The translations under genes were made by a program, and so were the position numbers. Below are positions 56,893-58,286 of a stretch of DNA of 64,000 bases, one piece after another. The notes beneath the pieces are model-generated. The model was not told the DNA's origin, did not search any database, and saw nothing but the letters and a program-made list of their open reading frames with translations. The DNA comes from Aminomonas paucivorans DSM 12260 (lineage in GTDB: Bacteria; Synergistota; Synergistia; Synergistales; Synergistaceae), in contig NZ_CM001022.1 of assembly GCF_000165795.1 (NCBI RefSeq), positions 992,001 to 1,056,000 on the forward strand, written 5' to 3'. Positions within the stretch are counted from its first letter, which is position 1. Each line of letters begins with the position of its first letter.

Positions 56893-56957
56893 CCGAAGGG
56901 GCTCGGGCGACCGGGCCCCTTCGCGTCGTCTGCAAAGCGGCGGAGGAGGTGCAAATC

Positions 56958-57680
56958 ATGGCAGGAGAAGCGGAAAGGGCGCAGGATCGCAGACGTCCCC
57001 TCCTTCGCACCGCGGAGGAGCTCTTCGCGGCCCAAGGCTACGGCGAGGGATGGTTCCGGGGCGTCCGGGAAAGGGGTGGGATCTCCGAGGAGGCGTTCCG
57101 CCGGGAGTTCCCCTCCCCGGAGGACCTGATGGAGACGCTGGCGGAGGCCATGCTGGAGGAGGCTCTGGAGGCCCAGTCCGGCGTTCTGGAGGACCCCTCC
57201 CTGGATGCCGTGGAGAAGCTGCGGAGGCTCTTTCGGGGATTGGCGGCCTGGAAGCTGCGCCGCCGGGCGTTCTTTCGCAACCTGGCTCTGGCGGCGTACC
57301 GGGAGGAGAACCTCCTGCTGCAACAGCGGCTGATGGGGGTCATGGGAAAACGGATGGTTCCCCTGACGGGGGAACTGTTCCGCCAGGGAGCCCGGGAAGG
57401 GGTCTTCTCCCTTTCCGACCCCGAGGAGGCGGCGGAACAGATCCTGTGGATGCTGCGCGGCCTGGGCCCCCGGGTCGCGACGGTCCTGGAGTCTCCTTCC
57501 CTCGCCGGGGCGGAGGAGGTGGTCCGCAAGTTCTCCGCGATCTCCCGTTCCATGGAGCGGATCCTGGGGGTTCCGGAGGGGGCCCTGGGCTTGGGCGCCC
57601 TCTTCCGGGAGACCCTGCACGCCTGGTTCGAGACCCTGACGGGACCGGAGGCTGGACGGGCCGATCCGGGGGCGCTATAA
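56958..57680 (+). CDS. TetR-family transcriptional regulator
   Basis: 240 residues; ATG 56958 has a perfect GGAGGAGGTG. N-terminal helix-turn-helix: 'LLRTAEELFAAQGYGEGWFRGVRERGGISEEAFRREFPSPEDLMETL' follows the TetR layout (helix 1 'AAEELFAAQGY'-like, recognition helix 'SEEAFRREFPS'). The C-terminal ligand-binding domain is helical ('LLLQQRLMGVMGKRM', 'AEQILWMLRGLG'). It probably represses its own or a nearby transporter/detoxification gene. It directly precedes the riboswitch-controlled yjdF. Confidence 0.85.
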   Translation: MAGEAERAQDRRRPLLRTAEELFAAQGYGEGWFRGVRERGGISEEAFRREFPSPEDLMETLAEAMLEEALEAQSGVLEDPSLDAVEKLRRLFRGLAAWKLRRRAFFRNLALAAYREENLLLQQRLMGVMGKRMVPLTGELFRQGAREGVFSLSDPEEAAEQILWMLRGLGPRVATVLESPSLAGAEEVVRKFSAISRSMERILGVPEGALGLGALFRETLHAWFETLTGPEAGRADPGAL

Positions 57681-57697
57681 CCGGGGCACAGAATGAC

Positions 57698-57713
57698 GGA
57701 GGGGAAGCCCTCC
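57698..57713 (+). terminator. Small hairpin after the TetR gene
   Basis: GGAGGG, a four-base loop, CCCTCC. It may end the TetR transcript weakly or be the first stem of the following structured RNA; no T-run follows. Confidence 0.35.
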
Positions 57714-57719
57714 GGAATC

Positions 57720-57816
57720 GGTAAGGACGAAAAAACACGGCCCCGTAGGTAGTCGGGGCGTGCCGGAAACCCGGCACCCGTAACCTGCCTCCCCCGGGAG
57801 GTTGTCCGTCGTCCCT
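57720..57816 (+). promoter_or_regulatory. Probable yjdF riboswitch
   Basis: The region folds into a closed multi-branch structure: closing stem GGACGA/TCGTCC (57725-57730 with 57809-57814), then three hairpins, CCCCG/CGGGG (57741-57758), GTGCCGG/CCGGCAC (57760-57777) and CCTCCC/GGGAGG (57788-57801). It sits 30 bases before yjdF. The yjdF motif RNA is a known riboswitch class found upstream of yjdF genes and responds to azaaromatic compounds. I infer identity from position plus structure; I have not compared the nucleotide consensus. Confidence 0.65.
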
Positions 57817-57847
57817 CTGTTGGGGTTTTGTCCGAGGAGGGATGGGG

Positions 57848-58252
57848 ATGGTGCGGGTGACGGTCTTCCATGACGGCCGGTTCTGGGTGCTCCTGGGGGA
57901 ACGGGAGGAAGCGGGGTTTCTGCGGGCGGTGCGGCGACTCTGCGCCGAAGAGCCCGGAGAGCCGGAGGTGCGCGGCTTCGCGACCTGGGCGATCCGGGAG
58001 GGACTGGACTCCTGCCCTCCCGTGGAGGCGCCGGAGCGTCCCCTGGTTGGGGGTTTCAAGCGACGCCTTCGGGAGGCCCGGGCGGAGCGCTCCACCCGGG
58101 GAGGGCGATCCCAGGCGGCCCTGCAGGCCCAGAGAGAGCTGGGCCTCCTCCACCGTCGGAAAGAGCGTTCCCGGGGGGCGGAGGAGGAGCGGCAGCGGCG
58201 CTTCCGGGACCGACGCCGCAGGAGCAAGCGGCGGCATGACGGAAAGGCGTGA
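57848..58252 (+). CDS. yjdF: YjdF family protein (DUF2992)
   Basis: 134 residues from ATG 57848, seven bases after GAGGAGG (an ATG six bases earlier abuts that site). The N-terminal half has the family pattern 'VRVTVFHDGRFWVLLGEREEAG' (key VTVFHDGRFWV), 'RRLCAEEPGEPEVRGFA'. The C-terminal half is a very basic helical tail rich in Arg, Glu and Lys ('RRKERSRGAEEERQRRFRDR'). The Bacillus homologue is controlled by the yjdF riboswitch; its biochemical role is unknown but linked to resistance to or use of azaaromatics. It is flanked by a TetR regulator. Confidence 0.88.
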   Translation: MVRVTVFHDGRFWVLLGEREEAGFLRAVRRLCAEEPGEPEVRGFATWAIREGLDSCPPVEAPERPLVGGFKRRLREARAERSTRGGRSQAALQAQRELGLLHRRKERSRGAEEERQRRFRDRRRRSKRRHDGKA

Positions 58253-58286
58253 CGAGGCGGGGCCTGAGGGCTCCGCCTCCCTCTTT

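Follow-up and report, generated by a model that had tools for sequence, protein, structure and literature searches.

A yjdF riboswitch next to a TetR-like gene in Aminomonas paucivorans, with a predicted start-site switch based on helix P1

Introduction

A yjdF gene of Aminomonas paucivorans is preceded by a structured RNA, which in turn follows a gene for a TetR-like regulator. This locus, part of a 64,000-nucleotide stretch of the genome (the window, to which all positions refer), raises the question of whether the RNA is an azaaromatic (yjdF) riboswitch, how it could act on yjdF, and whether the regulator shares in the control. For this riboswitch class (RF01764) Weinberg 2010 is reportedly also a source, and Krochmal 2024 is said to present its crystal structure.

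Li et al. 2016 reported 1060 yjdF RNAs, mostly from Firmicutes and also from Actinobacteria, Fusobacteria, Spirochaetes and Synergistetes, and described PadR genes that take the place of the riboswitch before yjdF where it is absent (PMC4793209). The ligand-pocket nucleotides of the class have been defined by crystal structure (PMC10987639), and in its off state 9-11 nt of helix P4 pair with the ribosome-binding site (RBS) (PMC4793209; PMC9142559).

Results and Discussion

The riboswitch aptamer

A covariance-model scan of the leader with Rfam confirmed the proposal of the preliminary description that a yjdF riboswitch precedes the gene. RF01764 was matched end to end (model positions 1-101, E = 2.8e-11 for the window) and well above its gathering score, while no other Rfam family reached its cut-off in the 64-kb window. 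In a scan of the whole genome, taken as one contig of 2,630,170 bases, this was the sole match; the published genome measures 2,630,120 bp with 67.6% G+C (PMC3035310), and the G+C content of the window is 68.1%. The features of the leader and gene are as follows.

57719-57825, plus strand: yjdF/azaaromatic aptamer RF01764 (67.5 bits, gathering cut-off 45)
57725-57730/57809-57814, plus strand: P1, closing helix of the aptamer
57740-57745/57754-57759, plus strand: P2, aptamer helix
57760-57766/57771-57777, plus strand: P3, aptamer helix
57788-57792/57797-57801, plus strand: P4, aptamer helix
57834-57850, plus strand: Shine-Dalgarno GAGGAGGG with candidate AUGs at 57842 and 57848, read from the sequence
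57842-58252, plus strand: yjdF (DUF2992), PF11208 at 101.1 bits (cut-off 23.8)

The RNA had been described as a closed structure of three hairpins lying 30 bases before yjdF. Three hairpins on a closed stem are indeed present, more exactly four helices with P1 as the closing one and P2-P4 within, and the RNA does lie 5' of the gene; its distance to the start codon is 16-22 nt rather than 30. The pocket nucleotides are kept (AACAC in J1/2, GGUAGU in L2, GUA in J3/4 and CC in J4/1), the single change being A94 to C, and the same C was read by eye in 4 of 94 members. The motif CAGUAAC was read outright in 80 of the 94, several of the other patterns stemming from a second downstream match. The RNA is a genuine member of the known azaaromatic (yjdF) riboswitch class, and its class membership and folds predict ligand binding and translational activation at this locus.

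The yjdF gene and its product

The presence of yjdF downstream was borne out by the match to PF11208 (DUF2992) over the full length. The protein has 136 aa if translation starts at 57842 and 134 aa if it starts at 57848, the latter being the likelier start because of its Shine-Dalgarno spacing. Like the family, it covers positions 1-132 of 132 and carries a basic C-terminal helix, but it is divergent, the best relatives found being about 39% identical (in the Synergistota genome G032). The plasmid search found no close YjdF relative, and the scan of genome contigs gave one distant relative from Amycolatopsis. No PDB relative was found by sequence, and nothing significant came from the fold search (best E 0.33). 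The model of the protein (57842-58252) consists of three strands plus a helix, followed by a long basic helix; its weak PDB matches (E > 0.3, not significant) were often double-stranded-RNA-binding domains.

Host range

The host, suspected beforehand to be Synergistota-like, does belong to the Synergistota. Its riboswitch had been taken as an extension of the class to this phylum, which is not new, since Li et al. 2016 already list Synergistetes (PMC4793209); with the host range known, that claim adds little. RF01764 was carried by 5 of 188 Synergistota genomes and by 83 of the 250 genomes of one actinobacterial class. In two further Synergistota genomes (G045 and G053) a gene near yjdF, PadR-like by sequence reading, stands instead of the riboswitch.

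Sequestration of the start site

The folding of the leader points to a switch that differs from the published one in the helix strand that closes the start site. The central feature is a single hairpin.

57804-57849, plus strand: predicted off-state hairpin (-25.5 kcal/mol, z = -3.26)

In this hairpin J4/1, the P1 3' strand (57804-57818) and the linker pair with the Shine-Dalgarno and the AUG (57831-57849), the predicted P1-3':Shine-Dalgarno pairing itself joining 57809-57818 to 57836-57845. It is mutually exclusive with P1, and only 1 of 200 shuffles was as good. In the minimum free energy fold P4 persists, and the Shine-Dalgarno and AUG, with an unpaired probability of about 0, have the P1 3' strand and J4/1 as their partners. 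The strength of the window's own duplex of P1 3' strand and linker with the RBS does not exceed that given by shuffled versions of these C-rich sequences (p = 0.64), and for this reason the off-state claim for the window rests on the z-score of the whole hairpin and on the relatives. By prediction the off state lies about 10-11 kcal/mol below the P1-formed state, and switching would therefore depend on strong stabilisation by the ligand or on co-transcriptional folding; given how hard switching at equilibrium would be, the latter may be relevant. When P1 was forced to form, some pairing of the start site persisted.

A sequence of events can be proposed from the class and the predicted folds. 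Transcription would probably start at about 57688, from the candidate promoter that overlaps the end of tetR. As long as no ligand is bound, the cytosines of J4/1 and the P1 3' strand are predicted to pair with the Shine-Dalgarno and AUG and so to block ribosomes. A planar aromatic ligand, bound in a pocket of J1/2, L2, J3/4 and J4/1, would stabilise P1 and the aptamer core, withdraw the P1 3' strand and free the start site. The outcome would be a translational ON switch for yjdF, whose product is thought, in this riboswitch class, to protect against the ligand. The adjoining TetR gene, which shares with yjdF an insertion at a variable site of the chromosome, is assigned no role in this control of yjdF. 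On the models we consider it fairly likely that yjdF translation is governed in this way, by an azaaromatic riboswitch whose P1 3' strand sequesters the start site in the absence of ligand.

Recurrence in relatives

The pairing of the P1 3' strand with the start site recurs in three other Synergistota (G158, G112 and G032). The off-state hairpin has z = -3.38 in G158 and z = -4.06 in G112; in G032 the P1 pairing is present with a z of -1.18, which is not significant. G032 and G158 have 9-11 contiguous pairs between the P1 3' strand/linker and the RBS and only 3-4 Watson-Crick pairs between P4 and the RBS, and as they are nearly devoid of the latter complementarity, P1 pairing is the one apparent means of shutting the start site in them. 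G081 carries the canonical P4:RBS pairing instead, of 10 bp.

A helix over the AUG is formed by the P1 3' strand (UCYGCRUGG) in 31 distinct actinobacterial leaders; its pairs from -1 to +5 are all conserved, and compensatory changes occur at +5 (C-G in 13, U-A in 17), -3, -2 and +6. The duplex of the P1 3' strand/linker with the RBS beats composition in 15 of 29 (Fisher 7e-12), counts that come from related sequences and hence from events that are not independent. Mostly these leaders also retain a 7-bp CCUCCUU/AAGGAGG pairing of P4, so that P4:RBS and P1:AUG pairings are both possible there. Across the class the P1 5' strand is rich in purines and Shine-Dalgarno-like, a resemblance by which competition for the P1 3' strand would come easily. 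We give about an even chance to the broader proposal that many non-Firmicutes yjdF riboswitches have an expression platform in which the Shine-Dalgarno and start codon are bound by the P1 3' strand and set free when ligand stabilises P1, a platform that replaces P4:RBS pairing (G032, G158 and the window) or reinforces it (the surveyed actinobacterial class). No description of such a platform was found in the main texts on the class; an earlier sighting in their supplementary alignments is possible.

If true, a P1-based switch would account for the coupling between promiscuous binding of ligands and translation in diderm and in actinobacterial hosts, would weaken the universality of P4:RBS pairing in the class, and would require reporter constructs to retain the linker and first codons.

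Two actinobacterial leaders (L159 and L207) have a long additional hairpin after P1 and before the Shine-Dalgarno; the helix of P1 3' strand and Shine-Dalgarno in L159 spans 14 bp (-44.5 kcal/mol, z = -4.9).

Gene order and the TetR-like neighbour

The riboswitch and yjdF lie in the order proC, SIMPL-domain gene, tetR-like gene, riboswitch, yjdF and terminator-like hairpin, followed by a gene resembling those of 23S rRNA uracil methyltransferases and one matching Pfam Gly_transporter on the other strand. The elements that bear on transcription are listed below.

56958-57680, plus strand: TetR-family regulator gene (near-cut-off Pfam matches, homologs, fold)
57653-57681, plus strand: candidate sigma-70-type promoter TGGACG-17 nt-TATAAC (consensus match only)
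57697-57714, plus strand: perfect 7-bp dyad CGGAGGG-GAAG-CCCTCCG, candidate leader hairpin or operator
58254-58279, plus strand: intrinsic-terminator-like hairpin, 3' of yjdF

Comparison of the flanks with related genomes indicated that tetR, riboswitch and yjdF form one insertion. In a sister genome of the same family (G004), which lacks it, 42 bp separate the SIMPL gene from the methyltransferase gene. Two other sister genomes (G012 and G077, loci L221 and L222) carry between these genes an unrelated pair on the other strand, a TetR gene with a SAM-methyltransferase gene. With a different gene pair in two sister genomes and none in a third, the spot is a variable integration spot.

That the gene upstream encodes a TetR regulator was upheld by homology and predicted fold, which make it clear that the protein is of this family. 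Both Pfam matches fall slightly short of their cut-offs (TetR_N 22.4 bits vs 24, TetR_C_39 25.6 vs 27), and the closest Synergistota TetR proteins are only 27-31% identical. The AlphaFold2 model (pLDDT 86.8) has the all-helical TetR fold, with 52 PDB matches at E <= 0.001, those listed being TetR-type regulators. The gene ends 38 bp before the aptamer.

The candidate promoter overlaps the end of tetR, 37 nt 5' of the aptamer, and is one of only two plus-strand sites of the TGGACG-17-TATAAC type in 64 kb. Such a site 3' of tetR favours independent transcription of yjdF. A strong 13-nt inverted repeat without a T run (56894-56923) directly follows the SIMPL gene and ends only 34 nt 5' of tetR, leaving hardly any space in which tetR could have its own promoter.

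Alternative explanations

Three other readings of the locus were weighed against sequestration by the P1 3' strand. In the mechanism published for the class, as in Bacillus subtilis (PMC4793209; PMC9142559), it would be the P4 5' strand (CCUGCCUCCCCC) that pairs with the Shine-Dalgarno without ligand, and P1 would have no special part. Its duplex with the RBS is as strong as that of P1 (-16.7 against -16.1 kcal/mol), and a perfect 10-bp complement exists in G081, of the same phylum. However, in the window P4 and the RBS share only 5 contiguous nt, short of the usual 9-11, where the P1 3' strand offers 10; the P4:RBS pairing is no better than shuffles (p = 0.70), the minimum free energy fold retains P4 with the Shine-Dalgarno paired to the P1 3' strand, and G032 and G158 have the few P4:RBS pairs given above. 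We regard this reading as unlikely, though it is the strongest of the three. Far less credible is an RNA that has decayed or arose by chance and regulates nothing, to which the one pocket position off consensus (A94 to C) and the intact riboswitch before a broken yjdF in G081 could be brought; the score of 67.5 bits, the conservation of all remaining pocket letters and a full-length yjdF directly 3' make it highly improbable.

The third reading is the two-layer response put forward in the preliminary description, by which TetR would repress yjdF transcription until released by an aromatic compound and the riboswitch would form a second, translational check. It would fit the position of tetR, on the same strand and just upstream in the one insertion that is missing from G004, the 18-bp dyad directly 3' of the candidate promoter, and the fold matches to aromatic-binding TetR proteins, e.g. 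RolR with resorcinol. By analogy, the PadR genes that stand in for the riboswitch before yjdF elsewhere, also in G045 and G053, could speak for it too: in the arrangement of Li et al. 2016, as here, a transcription regulator gene lies directly 5' of yjdF, but PadR replaces the riboswitch, whereas in the window a TetR-like gene and the riboswitch occur together, in a pairing that is not conserved. Among 94 riboswitch loci, only 5 have a TetR gene within 1.5 kb upstream, and just one, that in the window, has it as the immediate neighbour, so that synteny of tetR and riboswitch as a conserved unit was rejected; L079 and L090 have a methyltransferase gene between the upstream TetR gene and the riboswitch. 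The unrelated TetR pair at the same site in G012 and G077 implies that TetR genes land there anyway. yjdF has a promoter-like site of its own, and the search for a TetR operator gave only one clear dyad near it (57697-57714), which occurs at background frequency genome-wide (169 matches with up to 2 mismatches vs 186 for the reversed control); no dyad is common to the upstream regions of tetR and yjdF. Two-layer control is unsupported, and we hold it to be quite improbable.

Sequestration by the P1 3' strand is thus the preferred reading. The element in the window shares with RF01764 the covariance-model score, four-helix fold, pocket nucleotides, position before yjdF and predicted translational ON logic; it differs in its P4:RBS complementarity (5 nt vs 9-11), in the predicted capture of the start site by the P1 3' strand, in the C at A94 and in its high G+C. 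It adds one more clear and ordinary member to a known class, in a phylum already on record; its expression platform is probably a variant one, plausible and testable, and the TetR gene beside it is adjacent but unlinked.

Riboswitch copies without an intact yjdF

In G081 the riboswitch (L025, G081:C1:2877014-2877423) is intact and scores 74.1 bits; the PF11208 match downstream is split in two, its second part contains a TGA, and the gene is apparently broken. Some actinobacterial copies (L178, L199-L202 and L204-L206) gave no downstream yjdF frame that carries the expected motif, and these are possibly remnants. The Shine-Dalgarno has been lost in L178 and L206, and in L199-L205 the AUG region is kept, after which the sequences diverge.
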